Source of the DNA: Burkholderia sp. Ac-20379
Lineage (GTDB): Bacteria > Pseudomonadota > Gammaproteobacteria > Burkholderiales > Burkholderiaceae
Reading direction: 5' to 3'
Assembly (NCBI RefSeq): GCF_017104645.1
Contig: NZ_JAAGPF010000038.1
Coordinates: forward strand, 1-37,445
Length of the DNA: 37,445 nucleotides
Below, piece by piece: positions 140 to 26,073 of this stretch; within the stretch, counting starts at the first letter, position 1, and each line of letters starts with the position of its first letter. The notes beneath the pieces are model-generated. The model saw nothing but the letters and a program-made list of their open reading frames with translations, did no database searches and was not told the origin of the DNA. A program made the position numbers and the translations under genes.

Positions 140-3100
140 ATGGCAGCAGACGCACGCACGGCACGGCAACACAACGGCGGGGTTTCGCGCGCCGTCCTCA
201 AATCGAATCTGCGGCCGGTGTGCCGCGCCGTCGCGCTGCTGTTGGCGGCGGGCGTGACGACGCAGGTGCACGCGGCGGGCCTCGTCAACCTCGGTTCGGC
301 CATGCCGCGCGCCTCGGGCAGCGCCGCCGGCGTCGCCGGGCTCGGGGCGATCAACGTGGGCATCTCGCCGGCCGCGGCGCTGCAGGCCAGCCAACCGTCG
401 ATTCGCAACCTCGGCTACACCGCGCAGGCCATCGCCGCGCAGATCGCCGCGCAGCACGCGGCCGCGGCGGCCGCCGCGAACGCGCTGTCGAACGTGCCGA
501 ACGGCCTGGCGGCCGGCGGCCTGCAGGTGGCCACGGGCGCCACTGCCGATACCAGCAACCCGGTGCTGTGGATCAACGCGAGCGGGCCGACGCAGAGCGT
601 GGACGCCAGCGGCCACGTGACGGTCGACGTGCAGCAGACGGCGCAGAACGCCGTGCTGACCTGGCAGACGATGAACGTCGGCAAGCAGACGACGCTGAAT
701 TTCGATCAATCGGGCGGCACCCAGACCAACGGCGCCAATAACTGGGCCGTGCTGAATCGCGTGAACGACCCGAGCGGCCGGCCGAGCGAGATTCTCGGCA
801 ACATCACGGCGCAGGGCGCGGTGTACGTGATCAACCGCAACGGCGTGCTGTTCGGCGCGGGCTCCCAGGTCAACGTGCATTCGCTGGTGGCCTCGTCGCT
901 CGATCTGCTGAACATGAACGACTACAACCAGTCGTTGATCGCCGCGCGGCCGGGCGCCGCGCAGACCACGCCGGCGCTGAGCGACAGCACGCTGGCCCAG
1001 GATGCGGCCGGCATCGTCGCCAGCAACCTGCAGTTCCTCGGCTCGTCGGCCGGTTCGACGGGCGGCCTCGCCGCCGGCGAGGCGGGCAGCACCGGCAACC
1101 TGGGCGGCAACAACACGACCACGCCCAACGTGGTGCTCGGCCTCGGCAACAACGTCAACCTCACGTCGGCGGGCCAGTACCGTTCGTGGGGCGACGTGAC
1201 GATCGAGCAGGGCGCGTCGATCACGACCCATGCCAACGGCACCGCCAGCGACGGCGGCTTCGTGCTGATCGCGGCGCCCAACGTGACCAATGCCGGCAGC
1301 ATCACCGCCACCGACGGCCAGGTGGTGCTGGCCGCGGGCGTGGGCGTGAGCCTGCGGCCGAACGTGAACCAGCCGCAGATCCTCTCGCCGGAACTGAGCG
1401 GCAAGCTCACGCTGCTCGACACCGCCGCCGGGACGAGCGCCGACATCACGCCGATCGGCACGCTGACCAACACCGGCATCGTGCAGGCCACGCGCGGCAA
1501 CGTGAATCTGCTGGGCGGGCGGGTCGACCAGAACGGCGTGGTGGGCGTGACGACGAGCGTGAACACGCCCGGCTCGATCACCATCTCGACCGTCGACGAA
1601 TATGCGTCGAACAACCCGAACGGCGCAGCCTATCTCGGCCAGGGCGTGGTCCTGGTCGGCGTGGGCGGTGCGGTGGGCGACGCGACGAACCGCGCCGGCA
1701 TGCTGAGCTTCGGCCCCAACTCGGTGACGACGGTGCTGCCCGACACCAACGGCCAGACCGCCACCTCCGCGCCGGGCACGACGTTCGTGCCGGGCAGCAT
1801 CGCCATGACGGCCGGCGCCGTGTGGTTCCAGGGCGGCTCGCTGATCGAGGCGCCCGGCTCGACCGTCTCGGTCGCGGCGCTGACCTCGACGTCGCAGGTG
1901 GCCTACAACGCCGATCTGCAGCAGCGCGCCGTGCCGGGCCGCATCTACCTCGACAACGGCGCGACGATCGACGTGTCCGGCCTGGCGAACGTGGAGCTGC
2001 CGATCTCGAGCATCCTGCTGACGATCGACCGGATCGGCGGCAACGAGCTGGCCGATTCGCCGCTGCTGCGCGACGGCTTCCTGTTCGGTCTCAAGGGCGT
2101 GGTGGTGGACAGCACGCTGACCGGCACCCGCAGCGACGGCGTGCAGTGGGTCGGCAGCCCGATCCTGAACCTGGCCGGCTATGTCGACCTGATCCCGCGC
2201 AGCGTCGACCAGTTGCTGACCAACGGCGGCAAGATCACGCTGGCCGGCAACGAGGTGATGACCGCGGCGGGTTCGTCGATCAACCTGAACGGCGGCTATG
2301 TCCACTACGACGGCGGCATGGTGAACACCACGCGCCTCGTCGACGCGAACGGCGCGATCGTGCCGATCGGGCAGGCCAGCCCGTACGACACCTATCTCGG
2401 CATCGCCGGCGCGTTCACCGAGACGCACGCGCGCTGGGGCATCACCAAGACCTGGTACAACCCGTTGCAGACGGGGGGCACCTATCAATCGGACTTCATC
2501 GTCGGTGGCAACGCGGGCACGCTCGACGTCTATGCGCAATCGGCCATGGTGCTCGACGGCGACATCAGCGCCCACGCGTTCGGCGGCGCCAAGCAGACGC
2601 AGGGCAACAGCCTGCCCGCCGGCGGCACGCTCAACGTGGGCGTCGATCCGTCCGGCACGTCGATCATCGGCCTCACCGCCGGCGGCAATACCGCGTCGGT
2701 GTCGTCGGGCGTGGCCGGCCTGGTGATCCTGCAGGATCAGGCTCCGCAGCTCGACAGCCTGGCGTCGGGCTTCTCGGTGTCCACCGCGCTCGATACGACG
2801 ACGCTCGGCGCGTTGTCGAGCACCGATCCGAACAATGTGCTGGCGACCCAGGTGGTGCCGACCTCGACGCTGAACAAGGGCGGCTTCTCCAACCTGAACG
2901 TGACCGAGGACAAGGCCGCGGGCAAGGGCATTCTGGTGGCCGAGGGCACGCAACTGACGCTGCAGGCGGGCGGCTCGATCTCGCTGAAAAGCCCGAGTGG
3001 GGGCGCCGGCGTGACGGTGCTCGGCGACCTGAGCGTGCCCTCCGGCACGATTTCGGTCCTGGCGGGCGGCGATATCTCGGTCGGCCCGAACGCGACCTTG

Positions 3101-6100
3101 AGCGTGGCGGGGCAATGGGTCAACAACGATGTCCAGGCCGCGCCCGGCACGACCCCCGGCAATAGCGAATACATCAATGGCGGCAGCATTTCGCTGGCGA
3201 CGCAGGAAACGTCCAACCGCGCCACGCAGGCCGACACGACGGGCTCGATCGTCCTGCAGACGGGCAGCGTGCTGGATCTGTCGAGCGGCGGGATGATGCA
3301 GGCCAATGGCCAGTTGCTGATGAGCAACGGCGTGGCCCAGGGCAAGGGCGGCAACCTGACCCTGCGCACCTACGACACGAGTGCGTTCGGATCATATGGC
3401 ACGGGGGATGCCTTCGCGCCGACGCTGCCGGGCTCGCAGCCCACGCATGGCCGGATCGAGATGAACGGCACGATCCTCAGCGAAGGCTTCTCGGGGGGCG
3501 GCACGCTGACGCTGCAGGCGCCGGGCTTCCAGATCGGCGGCGATGCGGCGGCCATGCCGGCCTGGGATCTCTACCTGCCGGAGGGCTTCTTCGCGCAGCA
3601 GGGCTTCGGCAAGTATGTGCTGAATGCGCTGTACGACGTCACGGTCGCGCCCGGCGCGACCGTCGCCGTGACCCAACGCAATCTGATCCCCAACGCCACG
3701 GGCCTGCTGAACGCGGCAACCGGCGCCAATCTGTCGGCCGGCGGCCTGGCCGGCACCGGCACGCTCGACGCCTATCACCGGCAGGCCACCGATCTGGTGC
3801 TGACGGGCGGCGGTTATGCCGGCTGGCTCGACGCCAAGGGCGCCACGCCGACCTACGCCGGTGTGACGGGCGGCGTGACCGTGGCGTCGGGCGCGTCGAT
3901 CGTCGCCGATGCGGGCGCGAGCGTCGGGCTCGGTTCGCCTGCACAGGTGGTCGTACTCGGTTCGATCGTCGCGCCGGGCGGATCGATCGTGCTCGATGTG
4001 GCGGGTTCGATCGGCAACCCCTATCTGCTCGACGGGCAGACGGCCGCAAGCCTGGCATCCAGCAACCGGAGCGTCTGGCTGGGGCCGGACGCGCGGCTGG
4101 ATGTGGCCGGCGTGGCGCTCGCCAATCCGCTGGCCGTGCCCGTCAAGATCGGCGCGCAGGGCGTGCAGCCGGACACCGGCAAGGTGCTGGCCGGGGGCAC
4201 GGTGAGCCTCGCGACCGACGGCGGCTACGTGGTCGCCCAGGCCGGCTCGACGATCGATGTGTCGGGCACGTCGGCGCAATTCGATGCGCTGCAGGCCAAC
4301 GGCCGCTATGCGAAGCAGACGGTCTGGAGCGATGCGGGATCGATCACGTACGGGGCATCGTCCGGCCTGCTCGCCGACGCCACGCTCGACGCGCATGGCG
4401 GCGGCGGCGCGGGGCAGGGCGCGGGCGGCACCCTGACGATCCTGCCGATGCAGCAGGCGGACAAATCCGACAACATGGCCGTGGTGATTCGCCAGAGCGG
4501 CGACCTGGCGCCGGCCGGCCTGACGCCGGGAGGCAACCTCGCCACCGCCATCGACCCCACCACGGGGCAGCCGATCGGCGCCACGCCGGCCCACCTGCTC
4601 CAGTTCTCCGCCGACCGCCTCGACGGCTCCGGCATCGCCAACCTCGTGCTCGGCGACGCCAGCGCGGCCGGTGGCGGCGCCGTGGTGCCGTCGATCGTGT
4701 TCGCGGGCGACGTCAGGCTGGCGCTGCCGGGCTCCCTCACGCTCAATACCAACCGCATCGCGGCGATCGGCACGGGGCAACTGTCGAACCTGCTGGCGAA
4801 TCCTGCGACGGCCTCGCTGCCCGCCCTGCTGGGTCAGGCGCAGCAGCCGGCGCTCGGCACCACGGTCGAGCTCGATGCGCCGTACGTGGCGCTGAAGGGG
4901 CAGGCGAACACGCTGGCGCCGGCGTTCGTCCCGGTTGCGACGCTGTCCGACGCCACGCTGAACGTCAATGCCGGGTTCATCGACCTGTCGAACCAGATTC
5001 AGTTGAACAATTTCGGCCAGGCCAACTTCGTCAGCAGCGGCGATATCCGCCTCAGCTCGACCAAGGTACAGGCCACCGGCGCCGCGAACGTCTTCGCGCC
5101 GGGCGTGCTCTATTCGCCCGGCAATCTCGCGTTCAAGGCGGCCGACCTCTATCCGTCCACCGGCAGCACCTTCATCATCGATGCCGCCGGCCCGGTGGAT
5201 GCGGCCACCGGCCAGCAGACGCCCACCACCGTGACGTTCGCGCCGAACGGCGCCTCGGGCACGCCGCTGTCGGCGGGCGGCTCGTTGCTGGTCGACGCCA
5301 CCGACATCGTTCAGGGCGGCACGCTGCGCGTGCCGTCGGGCAAGCTCGTGCTCGGCGTGGGCGACCCCAGCGACAGCGCGACGCAGAGCCTGTTCGGCGG
5401 CCTGCCGCTGCTGGCGGCCACCGATTCGGTGCGCCTCACCAGCGGCAGCGTGACCTCGGTCTCGAACGGCGGAATCCTCATCCCCTACGGCACCACGGTC
5501 GACGGCGTCGAATACCAGTTCAACCCGGTGTCGGGCGCGGCGGCCGCGGATCTCGGCGCACCGCCGGCGAAATACATCGGCCTCAACGCGGGCAAGGTGT
5601 CGCTCGAGCCGGGCGCGATCATCGATCTGTCGGGCGGCGGCGACCTGCAGGCGGTGGAGTGGGTGCCCGGCACCGGCGGCACCCGCGACGTGCTCTCGCA
5701 ATACTCGATCAGCTACGCGAACTCGACCTCCGGCAGCGCGGTGCCGGTGAACGTCGGCGGTTCGAACGTGTATGCGATCGTGCCGGGCGCGCAATCGCCG
5801 GTGGCGGCCTACGATCCGGTCTACGCGCAGGGCACGCAGCCGTCCACCAATGCCAACGGCACGGCCAGCACCACCACCGCAACGCTTGGCGTGGGCCAGG
5901 CGGGCACGGGCGACGTGGTCGGCAAGTCGGTCTACCTGTCGGGCGTGCCGGGCCTGCCCGCCGGCTACTACACGCTGCTGCCGGCGAAGTACGCCACGCT
6001 GCCGGGCGCCTATCGCGTCACGGTGTCGAGCGCCTCGGGCGGCGTCGTGCCGGGGGCGAGCGCGACGCTGCCGGACGGCACCGTGCTGACGGCCGGCTAC

Positions 6101-9100
6101 CTGGCCGATTCGGTGACGGGCAGCCGCAGCGCCACCCCCACGCTGTTCAGCGTGCAGTCGGGCGCGGTCTGGCAGCAGTATTCGCAGTACACGCTCACCA
6201 GCGCCAACAGCTTCTACGCGGCGCAATCCGTCAGCAAGGGCACCGTGACGCCGCCGCTGCCGGTCGACGGCGGCCAACTGGTGCTGGCGGCCACGCGGTC
6301 GCTGGCGTTGGGCGCCACGCTCAATACCGCGCCGGGCGCGGGCGGCGCGCCTGCCGAGGTGGATATCGCCGCGCAGGACATCCAGATCACCGGCAACGGC
6401 AGCAGCGCGCTGGCCGGGTATCTGCAGATCGACGCCGGCGCGCTCGATTCGCTGACGGCGGGCAGCCTGCTGATCGGCGGCACGCGCACGGCCACCAGCA
6501 GCGGCATCACGATCGCGCCGATCGCCAACAGCGTGGTGGTGTCGAACGACGCCGGCTCGTCGCTCACCGGCCCGGAGATCCTGCTCGTCACCCGCTCGGG
6601 CGCGGGCGGCGTCGACGCGAACGCGGCCAACGGCCTGCAGGTGGACGCCGGGGCCTCGATCGTCGCGGCCGGCAGCTATCCGGCCGGCAAGGACGCGCCG
6701 ATCACGATCGCCGGCGACGGCGCCCTGTTGCGCGTGTCGAACGGCGCGCCGGTGGCGCTGTCGCGCACCGGCTCGACCGGCACCGGCCTCCTGACGGTCG
6801 GTGCGGGCGCGACGCTGGCGGGCGGGCAGTCGCTGCTGATCGATTCGTCGGGCAACCTGAAGGTCGATCCCACCGCGGTGCTGTCGGGCCGCGCGATCGC
6901 GGCCGACGGCGCGGCGATCACCATCACCAATGCGACCGGCAGCGCCGTGGACGGCCTGCCCGGTTTCGTGATCAGCCCGGCCGGCCTCGCGCAGTTCGCG
7001 AACGCCGATCAGGTCACGCTGCGCAGCTATGGCGCGATCGCGTTCCTGGGCGACGTCACGGCCAGCTTCGGCAATCGCGTCGATCTGAGCGCCGGCAGCT
7101 TCACGAGCGACGGCGGCAACGTCACGCTGAACGCGCCGCAGATCGCGTTCACCAACGAGGCCGGCGCACCCACGGTCACGCCGGTGGCAGGCAGCGGCAC
7201 GCTGACCGTCAATGCCGGCGAGATCGATCTCGGCGCCGGCGCGAAATCGCAGAGCGGCTTCGGCTCGGTGAACATGACGGCGAGCGGCGGCATCGCCGGC
7301 CAGAACACCGGCAGCTTCGATCTGGGCGCGGCGGCGGTCACGCTGGCCGCGCCCGTGTATCTGGCCGATACCGGCTCGAACGAAACGCTCGCCACCACCG
7401 GCGCGCTCGCGTTGAATGCGGGCGCCGGCACCGCGCTGTCGCGGGCGTCGCTCGGCGGCGCGATCGGTTTCACCGGCGGCACGCTGATCGACAACGGCGC
7501 GCTGATTTCCGCGCCGGCCGGCAACGTGAGCCTCGAAGCCACCACCGGCAACCTGACGATCGGCAACGGCGCGGTCGTGAGCGCGGCCGGCGTGGCGAAG
7601 ACCTTCTACGACGTCACGGCCTACGCGCCGGCCGGCAGCATCTCGCTGACCGCCGATGCCGGCACGGTGGACGTGCAATCCGGCTCGACGCTCGATTTCT
7701 CGGGCGCGAGCGGCGGCGGCGCGGCCGGCGCGCTGACGCTCTCGGCGCCGCAGCAGACGGTGGCGCTGAACGGCACGATCAAGGGCAACGCGGCCAGCGG
7801 CTATGCGGGCGGCTCGTTGTCGCTGACCAGCGGCAGCGCGGTGAATCTCGATGCGCTGGCCGGCACGCTCGCCTCCAGCGGCGTGAATCATGCGATCTCG
7901 GTGCGCAGCAAGACGGGCAACCTGACGCTGTCCGCCGGCAACACGCTGACGGCCGGCTCGGTGGCGCTGATCGCCGACGGCGGCGCGGGCAACGCGTCGG
8001 ATACGGCGAACGGCAACGTCGTCGTGCTCGGCACGATCGACGCCTCGGGCAAGGCCGGCGGCGAGATCGACCTGTACGGCCACAGCGGCGTGGATATCGA
8101 GGGTTCGCTGCTCGCGCGCGGCTCGGATGCGAACCAGCGCGGCGGCACGGTGGTGATCGGCACCAATGGCGTGTTCGATCCCGCGGCGGCGAATCCGTAC
8201 AACGCCACCTACGGCTACGAGAACATCGACCCGGCGCATGCGGGCACGATCCGCGTGGGCGCCGGCGCCTTGATCGACGTGTCGGGCGGCACGGCGGGCG
8301 GCTTGAGCGGCGGCACGGTCAGCTTCCGCACGCCGCTGCTGTCGGACGGCACGGTCAACCTGATCATGCCGGCCGGCGGCTTCCAGCCGGGCAAGGGCAT
8401 TGCCGGCTCGCGCGCGACCTCGCTCGAGGCCTATGCCGTGTGGAGCACGGCCGACGCCACGGCCGGTGCGCAGCATTTCGACGGGATCGTCGATCCCGCG
8501 GGCTGGTACGACGCCAAGGGCAACTTGCTGGCCGGCACCTTCGTCGCGCAGAATGCGGCCGCGACGAAATTCACGTTCGCGCCGAACTCGACCGGCGATG
8601 GCGGCGGGACGGTCACGAACGCCACGACCGGCGTGTCGACGCTGCTGACTCGCGACCAGTTGCAGACGGGCGATGCGGCGATCGGCTTCGGCGGGCTGTC
8701 GAGCATGTATTTCTCCGCCACCACGCCGAATGCCACGCACGAATCGTTCTACGGCTACCGGAACGGCGACGCGACGGCGGCCGTGCCGGGCACGCTGATG
8801 GGGTTCGTGCAGCACGGGCTGGACGGCGTGGTGAACCCGCTCGTCGCGGCCGGCGTCGCGAATGCGCGCCTGACGCCGGGCATCGAGCTGGACAATCCGG
8901 GCTCGGCCGTCAACGGCGGCAATATCTCGGTGCTGACCAACTGGAATCTCGGGGCCGGCGCCTCGTCGACGGATCTGGCCTATCGCTACGACGGTCAGGC
9001 GCCGGTCGTGACGCTGCGCGCAGCGAACGACGTGACGCTGAAGGCGAGCGTGTCGGACGGGTTCTTCCAGATCGCCAATCCGCTCGGCGGCGGCGTCATC

Positions 9101-12100
9101 AGCGTGCCGCCGCTGTCGAGCTTCGGCGCCGTGTCGGCGGTGTTCAACGCCCCGTCGGGCGCAAACGGGGCCGCTTACGGTTACTCCCTCGGCTATTGGC
9201 TTCCGAAAGGGCTGGTTGCGGCGCCGGGTCACCCGACGGGCGGCACGGCCGACGAAGTCGCGGAGTACTACGCGTTGTATTCCGCCTACGAGAACTATCT
9301 GGTGTCGGCTCCGACCAGCTTGAGCGGGCAAATCACCGGAACGGATCCTCGCACCGACGTCGCTGAATTGATGCAGTCTATCCGTGGTGGACCGGTGATC
9401 GCAGGGCAGCCGGTTGCGCCGACGGCGCCCACGGCCGCGATGCAGGCCGCCGACCCGTCGTCGTATCTCGTCTACCTCCACGACTATCAGGATTATTTCG
9501 CCGCGGCCGTCAAGTTTTACGTGGCGAACCATGCATTGTTCGCGCTGAGCCTCCTTGCGCCGCCGGCGGTGCAGCCGGTTTCCGTCATCGCGGCATCGAC
9601 CATTCCGGTGCCCGCGGTGGCCGACAACACGCCGTCGCCGGTCGCGTCGGCGGGCAATCCGCTGCCGATGCTCTCGGCTTCGCTGATCGGCGGCGGCAGC
9701 ACGTTCCGCGTGATCGCCGGCGCCGATGCGAGCAGTGCGAATCCGGCGGCCCTGCAGGCGCTCTCGCAGCCCGGCTCGGCGGGCAGCGTCGTGCTCGACG
9801 GCTATACGAGCTATCTCGATGCCAACGGCCGCCAGATCCTGGCGCCGACGATGATACGCACGGGCACCGGCGCGATCGATATCGCGGCGTCGGGCGACAT
9901 CGCGCTCTACGACACCTCGCGCAATTGGGCGGCCGATCCGTCGCTCCAGCTCGTGCCGGGCGTGATCTACACGGCCGGGCAACTGTCGGCGGGCGCGCCG
10001 GCGCAAGGCACGACGGCATCGGTCGTGCACGCCGGCACGGTCGGAACGAACTACCAGGACATCCTGCTGACGCCGACCGTGAATTCCGATGCCGCGGGCG
10101 ACGTGACGCTGCTTGCCGGCGGCAATATCGTCGGCGCCGAGAAGCTGACGGATGCCACCGGCCTGGTCACGGGCGCCGCCGGCACCGATATCAGCCAGTT
10201 CTGGTGGCAGTGGATGCAGATCGGCAACCCGACCGGCAAGGTGGGCGCGACGAGCCCGGTCACGCAGACCGTCCAGACTTCGATCAACTTCGGCGGCTTC
10301 GATCAGGGCGTGATGAGCGTGGGCGGCAATGTGTCGGTGACCGCCGGCGGCGACATCTCGAATCTGTCGGTTTCGCTGCCCACCACGTGGTGGCTGACCA
10401 ATGCGAATACGGACAACCCGACGGTCAATACCGTGGGCGGCGGCAATTTGACGGTCGGCGCGGGCGGAAGCATCCTCAGCGGCGCCTATTTCGTGGCCAA
10501 GGGCGCCGGCCAACTGACGGCGGGCGGCCAGATCGCCCCCAACTACTCGGTGCCGTCGGGCTCGCTGATCGTGCCGCCGGTCGACGTGTCGACCATCCTC
10601 GCGCTGCAGGACGCCACGCTGAACGTCAGTGCGCGTCAGGGCGCGAATATCGGCCAGATCGTCGATCCGTCCTACATCAAGGGCGGCCAGACCTCCGCCT
10701 TCGACATCCTGACCGACATGAAGGGGTATTCGACCGGCTCGAGCGTGACGGTGGCCGCCACGACGGGCAATGTCGCGATCGGAACGCTGACCAAGCCGGC
10801 GGTCATCGGCGGCGGGGCCGTCGCATCGTTGTCGTCGCCGGCCGGCGATCTGTCGTACGTCCTGCCGTCGGCGATCGGCCTGACGGCTTTCGACGGCGGT
10901 ATCACGATCGCATCGGCCGGCGCACTCTCTCCGTCCGCGTCGGGCAATCTGGCGCTGCTTGCGGATCAATCGATTTCGATCTCGGGGTCGCCGCTGAACA
11001 GCAACGCACCGGCCGTGTTCGGCATGCTGGACAGCAACCCGGCGCAGATGCCTTCGCCGACCAATCCGAATGCGCAGGTGTTCCAGTTCACCGACAGCAA
11101 TCTCGCGGCGCACGCGGCGAGCCCGCTGCACGCGGACGATACGACGCCGGCCCGCCTCTACAGCCTGAACGGCTCGATCGTCGATGGGGCGCTCGGCACG
11201 GTCAACGGGGTGGCGTACTACCAGAACCTGCTCTCGATCGGGATCGACAAGCCGGCCTTCATCCAGGCGGCGGACGATATCGTGAATCTGGCGTTCGTCG
11301 GGCAGAACCTGAGAAAGTCGGATATCACGCGGGTGGTGGCCGGGCGCGATATCTACGACACGCCGTTGGCGCCGGGCCAGCGGCAGTTCGTGATTCCGTC
11401 GATCGTGCTGGGCGGGCCCGGCACGCTGGATGTCGAGGCGGGCCGCAATATCGGGCCGCTGACGAACGTGCTTCAGGAGTACGCCATCGTCGGCGCGGGC
11501 GTGTTCTCCGGCTATACCGGTATCGACGCGATCGGCAATGCCGGCAACCCCTACCTGCCGCACGAGAGCGCCAACGTCAACGTGATGTTCGGCGTCGGGC
11601 CTGGCGTGAATCTCGCCACCTTCTCCGCCACCTACATCGATCCCGCCAGCGCGGTGGCGCGCGATGCGAACACCGCGCCGGCGCTGATCGCCTTCATCGG
11701 GCAGTACCAGGCCGGGCAGGCCGTCGACACCGGGCTGGTGAAGGATCAGCCCGCGGTGCAGCCGATGACGGCGGAACAGGCCTGGGCCGCCTTCAAGGAC
11801 CTGCCGGCCCATGTGCAGCAGCTGTTTGCCGAGCAGGTGCTGTTCGGCGTGCTGACGAAGGTGGGCGAGGGCTACAACGATCCGGCCAGCCCGTTCTATC
11901 AGAAATACGTCAGCGGCTTCGACGCGATCAATACGCTGTTCCCGGCCGCGCTGGGCTATACCGCCAACAATCTGTCGGGCGGCTCGAACGGCGCGAGCCG
12001 CACGGCGGATACCGGCGATCTGGACATCCGCAGCACGACCATTCAGACCCAGCAGGGCGGCAGCGTGTCGATCCTCGGGCCGGGCGGCCAGGCGCTGGTG

Positions 12101-12880
12101 GGCAGCACGGCGGCGCCGCCGCAACTGCTCAACAGCAACGGCAAGGTGGTGGCCGGGCCGGGCACGATGGGCATTCTCACGCTCGAGACGGGCGACGTGA
12201 ATATCTTCACCGACCGCAGCGTGCTGCTCGCGCAAAGCCGGATCTTCACCGAGCGCGGCGGCGACATGACGATCTGGAGCTCGAACGGCGATATCAACGC
12301 GGGCAAGGGCGCGAAATCGTCGTCGGACGTGCCGGCGCCGCAGTATGTCTGCGATCCGAACCACTACTGCACGGTGGATGCGCGGGGCGCGGTGACGGGC
12401 GCCGGCATCGCGACGCTGCAGAGCGTGCCGGGCGTGCCGATCGGCACGATCAACCTGATCGCGCCGCGCGGCACGGTGGATGCGGGCGACGCGGGCATTC
12501 GCGCCGGCAACATCAACGTCGCCGCGCTGCGTGTGGCGAACGCCGACAATATCCAGGTGTCGGGGAAGTCGAGCGGCATTCCCGTCGTGCAGTCCGTGAA
12601 CACCGGGGCGTTGACCGCCGCCAGCTCGGCCGCGACGGCGGCAAGCCAGATGGCGCAGGATCTTGCGCGCGGCAATGCATCGGGCGGCGGCGTGCGCCGC
12701 TGGAAAATCACGGTGCAGGTCGAGGGCTTCGGCGAAACCGAGGAATCGCGGCGGCGCAAGCACAAGCAGGTCAGCTACGATCCGTCCAACGCGGTGTCGG
12801 TGGTGGGGTTCGGTCAGGCCGGGCCGACCCAGCGGGCGGCGCTGAGCGAGGGCGAAAGGACGAAGCTCGGCAAGCTTTGA
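140..12880 (+). CDS. Giant TpsA exoprotein, filamentous haemagglutinin family (PdtA-like)
   Basis: A 4246-residue secreted adhesin of the two-partner secretion (type Vb) class, exported through the outer membrane by a TpsB pore. An extended signal peptide ends near residue 45 (VHA/AG). The TPS/haemagglutination-activity domain lies at about 140-260, with the INRNGVLFG motif that corresponds to the family NPNG-type motif. The body is Gly/Ala/Ser/Thr/Asn-rich with irregular repeats, as expected of a right-handed beta-helix, interrupted by two helix-like Tyr/Ala-rich stretches (about 3009-3140 and 3842-3938). The C-terminal part, from about 4060, resembles DUF3739 (GTINLIAPRGTVDAGDAGIR). The only cysteines I found in the mature chain are C4071 and C4077. 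Size and neighbours match the recalled P. aeruginosa PdtA. The ATG at 140 has GTGAGGG almost abutting it; a GTG at residue 27 is a weaker alternative. The likely partner is the TpsB at 29351, 16 kb away. Confidence 0.93.
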   Translation: MAADARTARQHNGGVSRAVLKSNLRPVCRAVALLLAAGVTTQVHAAGLVNLGSAMPRASGSAAGVAGLGAINVGISPAAALQASQPSIRNLGYTAQAIAAQIAAQHAAAAAAANALSNVPNGLAAGGLQVATGATADTSNPVLWINASGPTQSVDASGHVTVDVQQTAQNAVLTWQTMNVGKQTTLNFDQSGGTQTNGANNWAVLNRVNDPSGRPSEILGNITAQGAVYVINRNGVLFGAGSQVNVHSLVASSLDLLNMNDYNQSLIAARPGAAQTTPALSDSTLAQDAAGIVASNLQFLGSSAGSTGGLAAGEAGSTGNLGGNNTTTPNVVLGLGNNVNLTSAGQYRSWGDVTIEQGASITTHANGTASDGGFVLIAAPNVTNAGSITATDGQVVLAAGVGVSLRPNVNQPQILSPELSGKLTLLDTAAGTSADITPIGTLTNTGIVQATRGNVNLLGGRVDQNGVVGVTTSVNTPGSITISTVDEYASNNPNGAAYLGQGVVLVGVGGAVGDATNRAGMLSFGPNSVTTVLPDTNGQTATSAPGTTFVPGSIAMTAGAVWFQGGSLIEAPGSTVSVAALTSTSQVAYNADLQQRAVPGRIYLDNGATIDVSGLANVELPISSILLTIDRIGGNELADSPLLRDGFLFGLKGVVVDSTLTGTRSDGVQWVGSPILNLAGYVDLIPRSVDQLLTNGGKITLAGNEVMTAAGSSINLNGGYVHYDGGMVNTTRLVDANGAIVPIGQASPYDTYLGIAGAFTETHARWGITKTWYNPLQTGGTYQSDFIVGGNAGTLDVYAQSAMVLDGDISAHAFGGAKQTQGNSLPAGGTLNVGVDPSGTSIIGLTAGGNTASVSSGVAGLVILQDQAPQLDSLASGFSVSTALDTTTLGALSSTDPNNVLATQVVPTSTLNKGGFSNLNVTEDKAAGKGILVAEGTQLTLQAGGSISLKSPSGGAGVTVLGDLSVPSGTISVLAGGDISVGPNATLSVAGQWVNNDVQAAPGTTPGNSEYINGGSISLATQETSNRATQADTTGSIVLQTGSVLDLSSGGMMQANGQLLMSNGVAQGKGGNLTLRTYDTSAFGSYGTGDAFAPTLPGSQPTHGRIEMNGTILSEGFSGGGTLTLQAPGFQIGGDAAAMPAWDLYLPEGFFAQQGFGKYVLNALYDVTVAPGATVAVTQRNLIPNATGLLNAATGANLSAGGLAGTGTLDAYHRQATDLVLTGGGYAGWLDAKGATPTYAGVTGGVTVASGASIVADAGASVGLGSPAQVVVLGSIVAPGGSIVLDVAGSIGNPYLLDGQTAASLASSNRSVWLGPDARLDVAGVALANPLAVPVKIGAQGVQPDTGKVLAGGTVSLATDGGYVVAQAGSTIDVSGTSAQFDALQANGRYAKQTVWSDAGSITYGASSGLLADATLDAHGGGGAGQGAGGTLTILPMQQADKSDNMAVVIRQSGDLAPAGLTPGGNLATAIDPTTGQPIGATPAHLLQFSADRLDGSGIANLVLGDASAAGGGAVVPSIVFAGDVRLALPGSLTLNTNRIAAIGTGQLSNLLANPATASLPALLGQAQQPALGTTVELDAPYVALKGQANTLAPAFVPVATLSDATLNVNAGFIDLSNQIQLNNFGQANFVSSGDIRLSSTKVQATGAANVFAPGVLYSPGNLAFKAADLYPSTGSTFIIDAAGPVDAATGQQTPTTVTFAPNGASGTPLSAGGSLLVDATDIVQGGTLRVPSGKLVLGVGDPSDSATQSLFGGLPLLAATDSVRLTSGSVTSVSNGGILIPYGTTVDGVEYQFNPVSGAAAADLGAPPAKYIGLNAGKVSLEPGAIIDLSGGGDLQAVEWVPGTGGTRDVLSQYSISYANSTSGSAVPVNVGGSNVYAIVPGAQSPVAAYDPVYAQGTQPSTNANGTASTTTATLGVGQAGTGDVVGKSVYLSGVPGLPAGYYTLLPAKYATLPGAYRVTVSSASGGVVPGASATLPDGTVLTAGYLADSVTGSRSATPTLFSVQSGAVWQQYSQYTLTSANSFYAAQSVSKGTVTPPLPVDGGQLVLAATRSLALGATLNTAPGAGGAPAEVDIAAQDIQITGNGSSALAGYLQIDAGALDSLTAGSLLIGGTRTATSSGITIAPIANSVVVSNDAGSSLTGPEILLVTRSGAGGVDANAANGLQVDAGASIVAAGSYPAGKDAPITIAGDGALLRVSNGAPVALSRTGSTGTGLLTVGAGATLAGGQSLLIDSSGNLKVDPTAVLSGRAIAADGAAITITNATGSAVDGLPGFVISPAGLAQFANADQVTLRSYGAIAFLGDVTASFGNRVDLSAGSFTSDGGNVTLNAPQIAFTNEAGAPTVTPVAGSGTLTVNAGEIDLGAGAKSQSGFGSVNMTASGGIAGQNTGSFDLGAAAVTLAAPVYLADTGSNETLATTGALALNAGAGTALSRASLGGAIGFTGGTLIDNGALISAPAGNVSLEATTGNLTIGNGAVVSAAGVAKTFYDVTAYAPAGSISLTADAGTVDVQSGSTLDFSGASGGGAAGALTLSAPQQTVALNGTIKGNAASGYAGGSLSLTSGSAVNLDALAGTLASSGVNHAISVRSKTGNLTLSAGNTLTAGSVALIADGGAGNASDTANGNVVVLGTIDASGKAGGEIDLYGHSGVDIEGSLLARGSDANQRGGTVVIGTNGVFDPAAANPYNATYGYENIDPAHAGTIRVGAGALIDVSGGTAGGLSGGTVSFRTPLLSDGTVNLIMPAGGFQPGKGIAGSRATSLEAYAVWSTADATAGAQHFDGIVDPAGWYDAKGNLLAGTFVAQNAAATKFTFAPNSTGDGGGTVTNATTGVSTLLTRDQLQTGDAAIGFGGLSSMYFSATTPNATHESFYGYRNGDATAAVPGTLMGFVQHGLDGVVNPLVAAGVANARLTPGIELDNPGSAVNGGNISVLTNWNLGAGASSTDLAYRYDGQAPVVTLRAANDVTLKASVSDGFFQIANPLGGGVISVPPLSSFGAVSAVFNAPSGANGAAYGYSLGYWLPKGLVAAPGHPTGGTADEVAEYYALYSAYENYLVSAPTSLSGQITGTDPRTDVAELMQSIRGGPVIAGQPVAPTAPTAAMQAADPSSYLVYLHDYQDYFAAAVKFYVANHALFALSLLAPPAVQPVSVIAASTIPVPAVADNTPSPVASAGNPLPMLSASLIGGGSTFRVIAGADASSANPAALQALSQPGSAGSVVLDGYTSYLDANGRQILAPTMIRTGTGAIDIAASGDIALYDTSRNWAADPSLQLVPGVIYTAGQLSAGAPAQGTTASVVHAGTVGTNYQDILLTPTVNSDAAGDVTLLAGGNIVGAEKLTDATGLVTGAAGTDISQFWWQWMQIGNPTGKVGATSPVTQTVQTSINFGGFDQGVMSVGGNVSVTAGGDISNLSVSLPTTWWLTNANTDNPTVNTVGGGNLTVGAGGSILSGAYFVAKGAGQLTAGGQIAPNYSVPSGSLIVPPVDVSTILALQDATLNVSARQGANIGQIVDPSYIKGGQTSAFDILTDMKGYSTGSSVTVAATTGNVAIGTLTKPAVIGGGAVASLSSPAGDLSYVLPSAIGLTAFDGGITIASAGALSPSASGNLALLADQSISISGSPLNSNAPAVFGMLDSNPAQMPSPTNPNAQVFQFTDSNLAAHAASPLHADDTTPARLYSLNGSIVDGALGTVNGVAYYQNLLSIGIDKPAFIQAADDIVNLAFVGQNLRKSDITRVVAGRDIYDTPLAPGQRQFVIPSIVLGGPGTLDVEAGRNIGPLTNVLQEYAIVGAGVFSGYTGIDAIGNAGNPYLPHESANVNVMFGVGPGVNLATFSATYIDPASAVARDANTAPALIAFIGQYQAGQAVDTGLVKDQPAVQPMTAEQAWAAFKDLPAHVQQLFAEQVLFGVLTKVGEGYNDPASPFYQKYVSGFDAINTLFPAALGYTANNLSGGSNGASRTADTGDLDIRSTTIQTQQGGSVSILGPGGQALVGSTAAPPQLLNSNGKVVAGPGTMGILTLETGDVNIFTDRSVLLAQSRIFTERGGDMTIWSSNGDINAGKGAKSSSDVPAPQYVCDPNHYCTVDARGAVTGAGIATLQSVPGVPIGTINLIAPRGTVDAGDAGIRAGNINVAALRVANADNIQVSGKSSGIPVVQSVNTGALTAASSAATAASQMAQDLARGNASGGGVRRWKITVQVEGFGETEESRRRKHKQVSYDPSNAVSVVGFGQAGPTQRAALSEGERTKLGKL

Positions 12881-15828: not shown

Positions 15829-16384
15829 GAGAATGCCCCTGAACGAAGATGAAATGGAATTGCTGTTCGCTGTTGCTGCGGCCAGACGTTGTGATGCCGC
15901 GAAAGAAATGTAGATTGAAAATCTGAAAAACAGTGTGAATTTTTAATAGCATAAGGTCCGTAACATTTTTGCCCGATACGTTTTTTCCGTTTTTATAAAA
16001 TCAAAAAGAACCTTGTGCCGATGCCGCTGCCGGCGCGGTGTAACGCAGCATCGAGGCAGTTGCGTGGCGAATGTTGCCCAACATTTCGTGCGCCCGGCGT
16101 GTGCCCCGCATTGGCCGCTTCAATTGTCATGCGATGAAATCGATTCGATTTCTATTTTTAAAGACGGCGGCCGGTTGCCGAATTGGCGTGCATTGATGGT
16201 TGCGTTGTTTAAATGATCGGCGTCGGATCCGGTTGAATGCCGATTCGATATTCCGAATTAAAAAAGGTAGCCCAACATCCGTCACAAATTTGCACGGGTT
16301 CGCTGCTTAGTCTTGGCTGGCAATCGCGCTCGCATTCGACGATCCGATGGAGCGAAGCGAGGCGCGTTACCGGGGAACACTGAC
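15829..16384. other. AT-rich divergent intergenic region between phosphate-binding gene and gspF
   Basis: A 556-bp stretch with no convincing gene. It is clearly more AT-rich than the rest of the window, especially 15900-16020 and 16140-16270, with A/T tracts typical of promoter DNA. It must hold the leftward promoter for the phosphate-binding gene and the rightward promoter for gspF. At 16279-16296 the plus strand reads CCGTCACAAATTTGCACG. Its first half and AAAT spacer resemble a Pho box, but the second half is poor. On the minus strand a TATGCT/TATTAA-like element lies near 15943-15952. None of these is proven. Confidence 0.5.
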
Positions 16385-21300: not shown

Positions 21301-21495
21301 CGTCCTCCGCCTGCCGTTCCCGGCCCCGCCATCGCGAAATCCGCCGATTGGTCTGCGGGTTGGGCGCGTTCGTACCGACTAGATGAATGAGGTGCGTCGT
21401 ATTTGCGACCGCGGCCGAAGCGCTGGCCGCTGTACGTGTTTGAGCGGAGGGTGGCGGAACTGGGCTGCGGACATCGTGCTTCGGGGGACGGCAAT

Positions 21496-21738
21496 ATGAT
21501 GAGAGCGTCGATAACGGAAGAATGGCTGGCGGGCGCGCCGCGCACGAACGACGACGAGATCATTCGCGAAGGGGCCGTGCGCTGGCTGTTGTGGCTGCGC
21601 GCCGGCGAGGCGGCGGAACGGGAATTCTCGGCGTGCGAGCGCTGGTGCGCGCAGAGCGCCGCGCATGCATCGGCGATGCACGAGGCGCTATGGCTATGGG
21701 CCGCGCTGCGGGCGATCGACGGGCCGGATCTGCAGTGA
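21496..21738 (+). CDS. Solitary FecR N-terminal (DUF4880) domain protein
   Basis: An 80-residue protein made of little more than the DUF4880 sigma-binding domain: residues about 20-75 read IIREGAVRWLLWLRAGEAAE, then CERWCAQSAAHASAMHEALW, matching the N-terminal domain of the neighbouring anti-sigma factor in pattern though not closely in sequence. It has no membrane segment and no periplasmic domain, so it should be cytoplasmic. I chose the ATG at 21496 (GGGGGACGG upstream); an in-frame start at 21403 exists but adds non-conserved residues. It lies behind the terminator of the signalling operon and has no sigma gene of its own. It may be a remnant of a second FecR gene or a working free anti-sigma domain. 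Confidence 0.7.
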   Translation: MMRASITEEWLAGAPRTNDDEIIREGAVRWLLWLRAGEAAEREFSACERWCAQSAAHASAMHEALWLWAALRAIDGPDLQ

Positions 21739-22311: not shown

Positions 22312-23142
22312 TCAGTTCGGCGCCGGGCCGTCGTCGCGTGCATGGGCACGCGCGGCGGCCCAGGCGGCGTCGAGCGGGTCGTCGTTCGCCCGATGCGGCG
22401 CGAGCAGGAACGGAAAGCGTTCGACGAACGAGGCGGACGCCTGCAATGCCACGATATGGTCGATCATCCAATGCAGCATTTCGCCACCGCGCCGAATCTG
22501 GTTCGTACGCCAGCGAGGCATCGTTTCGAACAACGCCGCGAACGCGCTCCAGCGCGAGGGGCGATCGTTGTCGCCGGGGCGGAAGTAGGTCGCGAGACGA
22601 ACGTCGGCGTGTTCGTCCAGTTCGCCCACGAATATGCCGCGCGGCGTCGGCACGGCCAGTTGTTTCCAATGCTCGGCCAGCGCCAGGCCGCGAATCGCGC
22701 GGGCCATCACGAACGCGATGGCCACCTCGTTCTCGATGCCGGCCAGCGCCGGCGCGCCGTTGCGCTGCATGCAGCGCGCGATGGCGTGCGGCCGGATGGT
22801 GGCCGAGGCGAAGCTGCGCAGCACCAGATCGGGAACGGTCAACTGCAATTCGAATTCGCGCATGCCGTGTTCGGCGCTCATCGTCGCGAAATTGACGAAC
22901 AGCCCCTCGCGGCCGCCCAGCGCACCCACGTACGGTTCGAGGCCCAGCCGCCGGAGCCGCGGCGCGACCTGGCGCGCCAGCAGGCGCATCAGGTTGCGCC
23001 GGCCGCGCTCGCCGTCGTAGGCGTCGAGCGTGCGCGTGATCACGTCGCTGATTTCCCAGCGCCGCGCCTCGGCGACGAGCCGCGGCGAACCATTCAAGTC
23101 GAAGCGTGCGCGGCCGTGGGCCACGCGGGGGTCTACGTACAT
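22312..23142 (-). CDS. Uncharacterised protein divergent from the transposase-Phd fusion
   Basis: A 276-residue protein that I do not recognise. It has no signal peptide and no membrane segment, is rich in Arg, and has recognisable blocks such as YVGALGGREGLFVNFATMS and HWKQLAVPTPRGIFVGELDE. The ATG giving MYVDPRVAHG has GAAGG about 8 bases upstream. A longer TTG-started frame (to 23214) is possible but less likely. It diverges from the gene at 23301 with a shared spacer of 158 bases, so the two may be co-regulated. A hairpin past its stop (about 22286-22307) has no T-run and is not a clear terminator. Confidence 0.65.
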   Translation of the reverse strand: MYVDPRVAHGRARFDLNGSPRLVAEARRWEISDVITRTLDAYDGERGRRNLMRLLARQVAPRLRRLGLEPYVGALGGREGLFVNFATMSAEHGMREFELQLTVPDLVLRSFASATIRPHAIARCMQRNGAPALAGIENEVAIAFVMARAIRGLALAEHWKQLAVPTPRGIFVGELDEHADVRLATYFRPGDNDRPSRWSAFAALFETMPRWRTNQIRRGGEMLHWMIDHIVALQASASFVERFPFLLAPHRANDDPLDAAWAAARAHARDDGPAPN

Positions 23143-23300
23143 GCGGAAGGCCTTCGCGGGATCGGCGGACGGCGGGGGACGCGCTGCCGGACGTCCCCGA
23201 TGCTCATGCGCCAAAGCCCGCGAGTCAAGTTCGACGCTACATGCGCTGCCCGGCCTGCGTGCCGCGCCGCGTTTCCCTTTCCAAGAGCAGAGGTGACCTG

Positions 23301-24926
23301 GTGATACGCACTGTGTTGGAACGCTTTCTGGAACACAGCCCGATCGCGATCATGGCGCGGCTGATGATGCAGTGCGCGGTCGACGATCAGTGGCTCGATG
23401 CGGGGGACGATCCGCAGGCCGCGCTCGATCACGAGCCGTTGCGCGAGGCGCTGCTTGCGCGGGTCGCGGAGGCGATGATCGCGATCGGCGCGGGCGCGGC
23501 CTCGTTCGCCATGTCGCCCGAGTTCGCGCCCGCGGTGACGGCGCTGCACGACCGCATGAGCCGGCTGCGTTCGGGCTGGGGCCGCGCGCTCGTCAAGGAC
23601 GGCACGGCGCTGCTGCTGCCGCTCGCTCCGCGTCTGCCCGCCGAATGGGCCGACGCGGCCGGCGGCTTGCGCTTGCGCGTGCTCGACGGCACGGCGCTGC
23701 CGGCCGGGCTGGCCTGCCGGCCCGGCCACGACGGCTGCCGGTTCGGCATCGACGCCGACGAACCCGGCGGCCCGTGCGCGTTGCCCGTCTACGATCCCGA
23801 ATCCGGCCTGGTGGTCGATCTGGTGCCCTACGAGCGGGGCCGCGTCAACGAACGCGCGTTCGCCGGCGCGTTGCTCGAATCGCTGCAGCCGGGCGAACTG
23901 TGGATCCTCGACGGCCGCTTCGGCACGGCCGGCATGCTGTCGTGCTGGCCGCGCGGCAGCGGCTGGTTCCTGCTGCGCGAGCATGGCTGCGAGCCGGCCT
24001 GGCAGGCGGCCGGCGAGGCCATCGACGCCGGGCTGCTCGACGGCGGGCGCCTGACCGAACGGCCCGTGACGATGGCGGGCGATACCGGCGCGGCCTACCG
24101 GTGCATCGAATGGCAACCGTTCGATGCGGCGAGCGAACCGTTGCGCGTGCTGACCAACGCGCCGGTGGCATGGCTCGATACGGCCCGCGCCGTGCGGCTG
24201 GCGCGCGAGCGCTGGCGCGCCGCGTTGCCGCTGCCGGCCGATGCGATGTTCGACGGCGCGCTGTACGCCGATCTGCCGGTGCGCGCGCTGCCGCTCGCGC
24301 TCGGGATCGTCGCGACCGCCTGGAACGTGTGCAGCGTGATGACGACGGCGGCCACCGGCGAGCTCGATCTCGAGGCGCGCGATGCCGCGCGCCTGCCGGC
24401 CCAGATCGCCGCCTCGATGCGCTCGGCCTACGCGGGCATGATGATCGCGCTGCCGCCGGCCTGGTGGCGGCGCTACGACCATCTCTCGATCGGCACGCTC
24501 GGCTCGCTGGCGAAGCTGCTCGCGCATCATGTGGACCCACGCAGCGACCGCCGCAAACGGCGCGATCACAGCCTGTCGGCGAAATCGCGCGCGCAGCTTC
24601 GCGCGGCGACGCTCGACCGCCTGCTGCACGACGAGCACGACGGCCTGACCTCGAACGTCTTCAGCCTGCGCACGGTCGCGATGGCCACGCGCGACTTCAG
24701 CAGCAATCCGTCGAAGGCGCTGCGCCATGCGGGCGAGGCGCTGGTGATGGTGACCAAGTACAACCGGCCGATCGCGTTGCTGGTGTCGATCGAGGATTGG
24801 AATCGGCTGCTGGGCGAGGTGCGCGAGACCAGCGTGAGCCGGCTGTCGCTCGACGGCGGCGGCCCGGTGCAGCGGGTGCCGTCCGCCGGCACGCTGGGCT
24901 ACGGCGGCGACGTGCCGTTGAATTGA
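23301..24926 (+). CDS. Transposase-like protein fused to a C-terminal Phd antitoxin domain (PhdA-like)
   Basis: A 541-residue protein. Residues about 1-400 have the outline of an IS4-type DDE transposase: D129 in LRVLDGTALP, D204 in LWILDGRFGTAG, and a late RERWR segment (302-306) where active IS4 enzymes have Y-x-x-R-W-x-I-E. The expected catalytic Glu is not at that position (RWRAALPLP), so it is probably not an active transposase. Residues about 457-505 (TRDFSSNPSKALRHAGEALV, then YNRPIALLVSIEDWNRLLG) form a Phd/YefM-type antitoxin domain. The GTG start has GAGGTGA 6 bases upstream; the longer frame from 23106 is non-coding in character. I saw no terminal inverted repeats, target duplication or toxin partner. 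P. aeruginosa PhdA, next to pdtA, is the probable counterpart, recalled from memory. Likely a domesticated DNA-binding regulator. Confidence 0.75.
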   Translation: MIRTVLERFLEHSPIAIMARLMMQCAVDDQWLDAGDDPQAALDHEPLREALLARVAEAMIAIGAGAASFAMSPEFAPAVTALHDRMSRLRSGWGRALVKDGTALLLPLAPRLPAEWADAAGGLRLRVLDGTALPAGLACRPGHDGCRFGIDADEPGGPCALPVYDPESGLVVDLVPYERGRVNERAFAGALLESLQPGELWILDGRFGTAGMLSCWPRGSGWFLLREHGCEPAWQAAGEAIDAGLLDGGRLTERPVTMAGDTGAAYRCIEWQPFDAASEPLRVLTNAPVAWLDTARAVRLARERWRAALPLPADAMFDGALYADLPVRALPLALGIVATAWNVCSVMTTAATGELDLEARDAARLPAQIAASMRSAYAGMMIALPPAWWRRYDHLSIGTLGSLAKLLAHHVDPRSDRRKRRDHSLSAKSRAQLRAATLDRLLHDEHDGLTSNVFSLRTVAMATRDFSSNPSKALRHAGEALVMVTKYNRPIALLVSIEDWNRLLGEVRETSVSRLSLDGGGPVQRVPSAGTLGYGGDVPLN

Positions 24927-24971
24927 GCCGGTGCGGGCCGGGCGCGCCTCGCGTGCGCCCGCCGCGTTGTT

Positions 24972-25067
24972 GCGATACGGCGATACGGCGATACGGCGAT
25001 ACGGCGATACGGCGATACGGCGATACGGCGATACGGCGATACGGCGATACGGCGATACGGCGATACG
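24972..25067. repeat. Octanucleotide tandem repeat, 12 perfect copies of GCGATACG
   Basis: Twelve uninterrupted 8-base units with no mismatch, ending in a partial unit (GCG). It lies in the 154-base spacer between the convergent stop codons of the Phd-fusion gene and gspK. The unit is not a multiple of three and no gene uses it, so copy changes would not shift a reading frame in the genes reported. It is a short-sequence repeat, not a CRISPR array (no spacers). Confidence 0.98.
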
Positions 25068-25080
25068 GCGGGCGAACCGC

Positions 25081-26073
25081 TCAGGCGGTCACGCGCCGGA
25101 CCCACACGACCGAGGTCGACGTGAACTGGCCGGCGCTGAAGCGGGCGATCAGGGTGTCGATCCGCAGGTTCAGGCGGGGCGAGTGGATGCGGCAGTGCAC
25201 GAGGAAGTAGCCGCTGTCGACGCCGATCATCGCGCCGGCCGGCAGTTGGCTGCTGCCCTGAACCGGGTTCAGGTAGGCGGCCAGCTCGCCGGTGTTGACG
25301 AAGTAGGCGGAGCCGCGATGCGTGGTGAGGCGGTGCGCATCGCTGCGCGTGAGGGTCGGGATGCCGGCCATCAGCACCGGCTCGGCCGCGGTGTTGACGT
25401 TGACGTTCGTCAGGTCGGGCAGCAGGGTGACGTACGGCGCCAGCGCCGCAATGGTGGCCGCGCTGTAGCCGGGAATCCGGGAGAGATCGTCGACCGTGAC
25501 GAGCTGCAGCGGCCAGCCGTCGGGGCCGCCGTTGCGACGCAGCGAACGCAGCATCGCGTCGCTGGTCTGTTTGGCGAGCGAGGGATCCAGCGACAGCGCG
25601 TCGAGCAGGCGGCGATAGGCAAGAATGCCGTCGTTGTTGGCCTGGTAGGGCTGGCCGACGGCGGGGCGGGATACCAGGTTCATCAGGTTGAAGCGCGATT
25701 GCGCGTCTTCCACGTGGCCCGAGATATAGGCTTTGGCGAGATCGGCATTGACGCCGAGCGCCTCGCGCGGCAGCAGATCGGCCAGTTGCACGTCGGCCAC
25801 CGGCTCGGACCAGGCCTGCCCGGCGAACGTGACGTTCGTCTTGACGCTTTGCTGGCGCAACTGCGCGCGCGCCCACTCGACGGCCGCGCGTTCGGCCCAT
25901 AGCGCCTGAGTGGAGAGCCGCTGGTTTTCCACGTCGTGGGTGGACACCTGCTGCCGCCATACGACGCCCGCCGCCAGCGTGGCGGCCAGCGCCACCACCA
26001 GCAGCACCGTCACGATCGCGATGCCGCGTTGCCTTGCCGGCGAGGCGGCACGGCGGGGCCGGGTGCGGTTCAT
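25081..26073 (-). CDS. gspK: Type II secretion minor pseudopilin GspK
   Basis: A 330-residue GspK, the large minor pseudopilin that caps the pseudopilus tip. The N-terminus has prepilin site RQRG/IAIVTVLLVVALAAT. As in other GspK proteins there is no Glu at mature position 5, which lets it sit at the tip. The long helical domain follows, with the typical motif DAQSRFNLMNL and near the end NVNTAAEPVL, both GspK signatures. It is encoded on the opposite strand from gspFGH, 6.5 kb away, paired with a membrane-protein gene 13 bases upstream. GspI, GspJ and GspL are not next to it, so this type II system is dispersed. Confidence 0.93.
   Translation of the reverse strand: MNRTRPRRAASPARQRGIAIVTVLLVVALAATLAAGVVWRQQVSTHDVENQRLSTQALWAERAAVEWARAQLRQQSVKTNVTFAGQAWSEPVADVQLADLLPREALGVNADLAKAYISGHVEDAQSRFNLMNLVSRPAVGQPYQANNDGILAYRRLLDALSLDPSLAKQTSDAMLRSLRRNGGPDGWPLQLVTVDDLSRIPGYSAATIAALAPYVTLLPDLTNVNVNTAAEPVLMAGIPTLTRSDAHRLTTHRGSAYFVNTGELAAYLNPVQGSSQLPAGAMIGVDSGYFLVHCRIHSPRLNLRIDTLIARFSAGQFTSTSVVWVRRVTA

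Follow-up and report, generated by a model that had tools for sequence, protein, structure and literature searches.

The window that we analysed, a stretch of 37,445 nucleotides from Burkholderia sp. Ac-20379 (contig NZ_JAAGPF010000038.1), carries a gene in which a transposase body is joined in one frame to a Phd-type domain and is kept as a fusion. The gene is a single open frame on the forward strand (23301-24926), with a GTG start at 23301 and a stop codon ending at 24926, and it encodes a protein of 541 aa. Taking the account as a whole, we consider it reasonably probable that the frame of an IS4-type transposase was fused to a resident Phd gene, that its Tn5-like body was kept, and that the product is a regulator of the locus. 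An earlier note on this DNA had proposed a domesticated transposase fused to a Phd antitoxin domain, and the proposal is well supported by syntenic single-copy orthologues, a predicted Tn5-type fold, a Glu segment rebuilt in 38/38 compared rows, purifying selection and the absence of IS ends around the gene.

Table 1. Position of the fused gene, its parts and its neighbours in the window
Feature	Position	Strand	Remarks
Divergent neighbour, 276-aa protein	22312..23142	-	conserved; conservation begins at the ATG at 23142
Divergent spacer	23143..23300		158 bp; conserved blocks in an alignment of 38 upstream regions; candidate regulatory region
Transposase-derived body	23301..24569	+	residues 1 to about 423; Tn5/IS4-like fold; D129 and D204 kept; Glu segment replaced
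Linker between transposase part and Phd domain	24570..24671	+	tails of IS proteins align loosely here
Phd/YefM-type domain core	24672..24830	+	residues 458-510; near-invariant; PF02604
C-terminal tail and stop	24831..24926	+	variable; mean pairwise identity 0.504
gspK, second type II secretion locus	25081..26073	-	NCBIfam NF037980, 236.1 bits, cut-off 130

Taken singly, the family matches of the window protein are weak. PF02604 (Phd) is matched at residues 464-506 with E=1.5e-4 and 21.9 bits, below the curated cut-off of 29.8, which the excised domain does not reach either (26.4 bits); the NCBIfam transposase model NF033592 is matched at residues 80-227 with E=1.8e-6 and 27.3 bits, below its cut-off of 115. 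Both matches are backed by those of the orthologues, and the transposase match also by the predicted structure. Among 25 fused orthologues scanned with E up to 0.1, all 25 matched Phd, in agreement with the C-terminal domain recognised in the earlier note, and 15 matched DDE_Tnp_1. PF02604 was also matched by each of the ten aligned Phd domains, four of them stand-alone (E up to 0.01). The AF2 model of the window protein matches the Tn5 transposase, with the alignment starting near the N-terminus of the body, and the RNase H-like fold is present in it; the model is poor in the Phd part, where from residue 446 onwards hardly any position reaches a pLDDT of 50. When solved structures were searched by sequence, the whole-protein profile gave nothing at E 0.01, and the sole match of the Phd profile was a weak one (3g5o, Rv2865, E=0.061).

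An internal methionine, Met461, is conserved, and a Shine-Dalgarno-like motif precedes it in just 1/37 rows, in a count whose scripted pattern passed over L030, which likewise has Met there. As the motif is absent in the other 36/37 rows, the Phd domain is probably made only within the fusion, and its separate expression from Met461 is unlikely.

The body resembles the IS4-family (Tn5-like) elements of two genomes of the same family, G293 and G321, both in its Tn5-type fold and in sequence. Each of the two genomes carries four copies. Their proteins share 37-38% identity with residues 3-423/430 of the window protein, and in DNA seven of the eight copies match each other at 96.6-100% and the eighth (L059) at about 91%. 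CACCCCTTTCAAGGTGA stands at both ends of all eight, forming 17-bp terminal repeats, and direct repeats of the target flank those copies whose surroundings were compared by eye. The proteins of these elements end within the stretch aligned to the linker and the early Phd domain, and they have no Phd domain. The relative L055 and the more distant L063 pass the NCBIfam IS4 transposase cut-off of 115 (152.9 and 131.9 bits, respectively).

A search around the fused gene (window 22901-25200) for ends resembling those of the IS4 relatives found none, as the earlier note had stated of mobile-element ends in general: the best matches had 8 and 9 mismatches of 20 and were no better than the means of 60 shuffles (7.4 and 7.75). 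In the genome of Burkholderia sp. Ac-20379, the protein search returned one copy of the fused gene, and the DNA search four further scraps only (32-54 bases, E 2e-4 to 4e-4). Neither the inverted repeats nor the multiple identical copies that would speak against domestication were thus found in this genome. An active transposon or a recent IS copy is ruled out by the single copy, the altered Glu segment described below, the missing ends and the shortness of the DNA scraps. Further IS relatives occur in 18 plasmid records and in 4/274 genomes of the class, including that of Ac-20379, and carry no weight in the argument; the relevant stretch of the PLSDB record H1 is without annotation, and one scan of viral contigs returned no relative.

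The neighbourhood of the gene in the window is a type II secretion / TonB-ExbBD / FecR locus. By Pfam, it encodes GspF, GspG, GspH, FecR, STN/TonB, ExbB-, ExbD- and TonB-like proteins and a porin, together with a phosphate-binding-like protein and an FHA-like giant protein, and the ORF adjoining FecR looks like an ECF sigma factor in sequence. The earlier note had spoken of a phosphate/adhesin locus: phosphate-binding-like and FHA-like genes are there, and the locus is better named after its secretion, TonB-ExbBD and FecR genes. In the window, a very large open frame of 4246 aa (140-12880, forward strand) has an FHA-type DUF3739 domain near its C-terminus, and a stand-alone DUF4880 ORF (21403-21738, forward strand), matched in many loci, adjoins a FecR gene. 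Between the convergent ends of the fused gene and of gspK lies a perfect 8-bp tandem repeat, GCGATACG, of 12.4 copies (24972-25070).

In the Burkholderia sample, the fusion is present in 33/65 genomes, including that of Ac-20379 and that of G011, whose copy is frameshifted, and these are exactly the genomes with the gspK of this locus at an identity of at least 67%. Two more (G025 and G052) have a gspK at 53-54% with a stand-alone Phd gene adjoining it, and the other 30/65 have neither the fusion nor the gspK of this locus. The family sample holds the full-length fusion in 28/299 genomes (again counting Ac-20379), belonging to Burkholderia, Paraburkholderia and Trinickia, and in all three genera the conserved single-copy orthologues lie at the same locus, beside gspK. 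The latter adjoins the fused gene, convergently, in 54/54 loci, many of which are the same genome present in two collections.

Five loci carry the Phd gene unfused. In G025, G052, G154 and G228, a stand-alone Phd protein of 72-77 aa adjoins gspK, convergently, at the same spot as the fusion. In G100 (L081 8503-8760 and 9342-10385), an 85-aa stand-alone Phd protein, which passes the PF02604 curated cut-off (32.4 vs 29.8 bits), also adjoins gspK; it is divergent from it, so its place is not identical to that in the other unfused loci, and it further adjoins STN/TonB, FecR and sigma-like genes in an order unlike that of the convergent loci. At the E-values used, neither a transposase body nor the divergent gene was found in any of the five. 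The nine neighbouring ORFs scanned around the stand-alone genes belong to GspH, GspM, GspL, STN/TonB or no family, with no toxin among them. The stand-alone proteins are 46-49% identical to the window domain in L076, L078 and L080, and 38% in L081, and the residues A-R-FS-NPS--LR-A, V-VT-Y--P and W are invariant in the ten aligned Phd domains. A second solitary Phd-like family was observed in G052, G228 and G025 (L075 ~1418-1720, L079 ~6406-6708 and L082 ~15926-16093), represented by ITTRDLSKNPSKALRDVG in L075 and L079; it lies ~21 kb (G052) and ~28 kb (G228) from the first Phd gene.

The comparison of fused and unfused loci also suggests the order of events. In a tree of concatenated secretion genes, which covered 21 of 34 loci with some genes missing, one branch with weak support (62/94) separated the 16 fused loci from the 5 unfused ones, whereas in the tree of gspK alone the pattern needs two changes; a single origin of the fusion is thus weakly favoured without being proven. 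The unfused loci could in principle have arisen by fission of a fused gene; since Phd is generally a small stand-alone protein, fusion is the simpler event. Given an unfused Phd gene at the locus and IS4 relatives without Phd, the likeliest course is that a solitary Phd-type gene already resident there captured the transposase frame, with the transposase as the newcomer, and that the product was kept across genera. Of the idea of a transposase body turned regulator, put forward in the earlier note, domestication is therefore well supported, and the direction seems to differ.

The two halves of the fusion are conserved to very different degrees. We compared 38 rows drawn from the 54 loci, which represent 37 genes (L014 and L033 are one gene with different starts; G011, G017 and G064 are not among the rows). 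The frame is continuous in every row. Pairwise identity averages 0.630 in the body, 0.757 in the linker (residues 416-457), 0.955 in the Phd domain and 0.504 in the tail. The median dN/dS (Nei-Gojobori, in high-GC genomes, over pairs with dS <0.6, namely 436 body pairs and 435 Phd pairs) was 0.378 for the body and 0.023 for the Phd domain, with gspK (0.243) and the divergent neighbour (0.247) as yardsticks; the body thus evolves faster than its neighbours (0.378 vs about 0.245). In each of the 11 chosen pairs, 0/1000 resamplings of the body reached 1. Purifying selection thus acts on both halves, moderately on the body and extremely on the Phd domain.

These values bear on the reading that all function resides in the Phd domain, the body being a tolerated, slowly decaying N-terminal add-on that only lends it a promoter and a start. 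Such a passive extension would agree with a Phd domain far more conserved than the body, with a body dN/dS higher than that of gspK, with the loss of catalytic aspartates in Trinickia (D1 in L051 and L052, D2 also in L052) and with the frameshifted or split copy of G011 (L073), for which an assembly error is possible. However, the body dN/dS is well under 1 in 11/11 tested pairs, none of the 38 rows (G011 not among them) has a break in the frame, and many body residues are invariant across the 25 orthologues, for example GMMIALP at 379-385. We regard a passive extension as rather unlikely, and prefer a body that is retained as part of a regulator.

The divergent 276-aa neighbour offers a second alternative. 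It is present in 54/54 fused loci, in L030 as a fragment only, and was not found in 5/5 unfused loci; it has no Pfam or NCBIfam match, and its AF2 model (pLDDT 50.4) is too poor for a structure search. The upstream-gene alignment (A3) holds 17 sequences, with L052 left out. Elsewhere in Burkholderia the neighbour has three distant relatives (26-29% identity), and in the two loci compared (L091 and L093; L092 left out), where they lie near carboxymuconolactone-decarboxylase-like or hydrolase genes, no function in common was found. Phd antitoxins act on partners next to them, and the neighbour co-occurs with the fusion; the two could thus form a reshaped toxin-antitoxin pair, with the neighbour as a toxin or partner that has escaped recognition and the fusion as antitoxin and repressor. 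Yet the two genes are divergent and form no operon, the neighbour has no family match to a toxin, G063 (L030) and G064 retain the fusion with a neighbour reduced to a 45-residue remnant, and stand-alone Phd genes occur without it. A type II pair has an adjacent cognate toxin in the same operon, which the fused gene lacks, and no toxin family was recognised among its scanned neighbours; the earlier note, too, had described a Phd domain without a toxin gene. A toxin-antitoxin pair is, in our judgement, improbable, and a solitary Phd-type regulator remains the preferred reading.

A third alternative concerns the active site of the body. The earlier note had rightly placed D129 and D204, which stand in RVLDGTA and WILDGRF, and had remarked that the expected Glu is lacking: in the alignment to the IS4 elements, the Glu column of the window protein holds Ala with a one-residue deletion adjoining, and ENLFQRLES of the elements becomes AALPLPADA. 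The D-D-E triad with its Glu segment is thus not intact in the window protein. In this alignment, the segment is rebuilt in 38/38 rows, with the one-residue deletion adjoining and an ALPLPL-like sequence replacing ENLFQRLES, and it is present in 4/4 aligned rows of IS4 relatives, one of which (L059) has lost D2. D1 is Asp in 33/38 rows and D2 in 37/38, and the Glu column holds D in 30, E in 5, and A (the window protein), Q and T in one each, so that it is acidic in 35/38. With the Glu helix rebuilt and D1 or D2 gone in some lineages, the fused protein seems hardly capable of normal DDE transposition, against which the altered segment argues; on the same column counts, the loss of all chemistry is not proven. 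Those counts would suit a still-active DNA enzyme, for example a nuclease or recombinase that the Phd domain steers to one particular site, but the prolines and the deletion around the Glu position in the aligned rows, the missing D1 of L051 and L052 and the Ala of the window copy make it very improbable. An ordinary degenerate IS remnant with no host function, to which the IS4 ancestry might point, is hardly credible for a gene that keeps its position across three genera, carries a near-invariant fused domain and is under a purifying selection that contradicts this reading.

The preferred account, of a transposase frame captured by a Phd gene, would run as follows. The second type II secretion locus, in its ancestral form in Burkholderiaceae, would have had a small, solitary Phd-type gene next to gspK. 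Just upstream of this gene an IS4-type element would have inserted and then lost its ends, and its transposase frame would have come to run on into that of the Phd gene. Phd/YefM antitoxins bind DNA as dimers, and by analogy the near-invariant Phd domain should do the same; it is predicted to bind an operator in or near the secretion locus, and the 158-bp divergent spacer would be the likeliest place of action. The body would add a large oligomerisation module and possibly a second DNA contact. The result would be a larger repressor or a DNA-bridging regulator, acting on the divergent neighbour and also on the fused gene, and the fusion thus probably acts as a DNA-binding regulator of the secretion locus. 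The phage-lysis modulator suggested in the earlier note finds no support.

The spacer (23143-23300) has no consensus sigma-70 promoter that we could find, and it offers one lead. The first codons of the neighbour, ATG TAC GTA, read in reverse, give TACGTACAT in most Burkholderia, overlapping the gene start, and GTA is that valine codon in 32/37 loci vs 40/1609 valine codons within the fused genes. TACGTACA stands at the start of the neighbour in 16/24 fused genome_contigs loci. In the unfused loci, there are 2, 2 and 4 sites in L076, L077 (these two are near relatives) and L080, and one site each, distant from Phd, in L078 and L081. The heptamer TACGTAC occurs twice upstream of gspK in L076, L077 and L080, and in L080 two copies also precede the stand-alone Phd gene. 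As TACGTACA was chosen post hoc, after inspection of the data, as the loci are mutually related, and as the motif is absent in 8/24 fused loci, TACGTACA/TACGTAC is a candidate operator motif as a lead only.

With respect to known systems, the fusion shares its fold with the IS4 elements of G293 and G321, and differs from them in lacking the terminal repeats (8/8 copies), the near-identical copies and the Glu segment, and in having a Phd domain. It shares its domain and locus with the solitary Phd/YefM genes (PF02604) beside gspK, which differ in being stand-alone proteins of 72-85 aa with no transposase body; no toxin was recognised in either case. TldR derives from TnpB, and neither it nor TnpA_REP nor Cas1 is known to be an IS4-type DDE protein. 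As far as the excerpted texts go, TnpA_REP (PMC8266576), TldR (PMC13418256) and Cas1 (PMC8987985) are transposon proteins with host roles, and in those excerpts, unlike in the window protein, no fusion to an antitoxin domain was found. Antitoxins, in turn, are described in the review PMC8987985 as leaving their toxin and acting as regulators; the Xre-type examples in its excerpt are given without a transposase fusion, which again sets the window protein apart. The exaptation of transposon proteins in prokaryotes and the turning of antitoxins into transcription factors are thus already known, in so far as these excerpts cover them. None of the matches listed from the open-access literature was, judging by its title and the opening of its abstract, a transposase-Phd fusion, and no fusion of a bacterial DDE transposase to a regulator appeared among them.

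If the account is true, a solitary Phd-type protein would have a role at a secretion locus, and one could test what keeps so large a transposase body, its active site damaged, on a domain of ~50 residues. Moreover, with fused orthologues, unfused counterparts and intact elements of the same family at hand, the steps of insertion, loss of ends, read-through fusion, loss of catalysis and retention can be ordered and tested. In animals and plants, new transcription factors are known to arise by the capture of transposases, and eukaryotes have host-transposase fusion transcription factors in which a host domain is joined to a domesticated transposase. The marks of such a fusion are found here as well: a conserved single frame, an unfused host gene at the locus (four convergent, the fifth divergent) and purifying selection. 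The window fusion likewise joins a host domain to a domesticated transposase, and it is unlike the eukaryotic ones in being bacterial, in its IS4-type DDE transposase and antitoxin-type domain, and in its place at a secretion locus. We therefore put forward, as an evenly balanced proposal, that it may be a bacterial counterpart of those factors, a DDE transposase captured by a resident solitary antitoxin-type regulator, with the presumed pre-fusion locus still visible in relatives and with both modules binding or bridging DNA to control the secretion locus.
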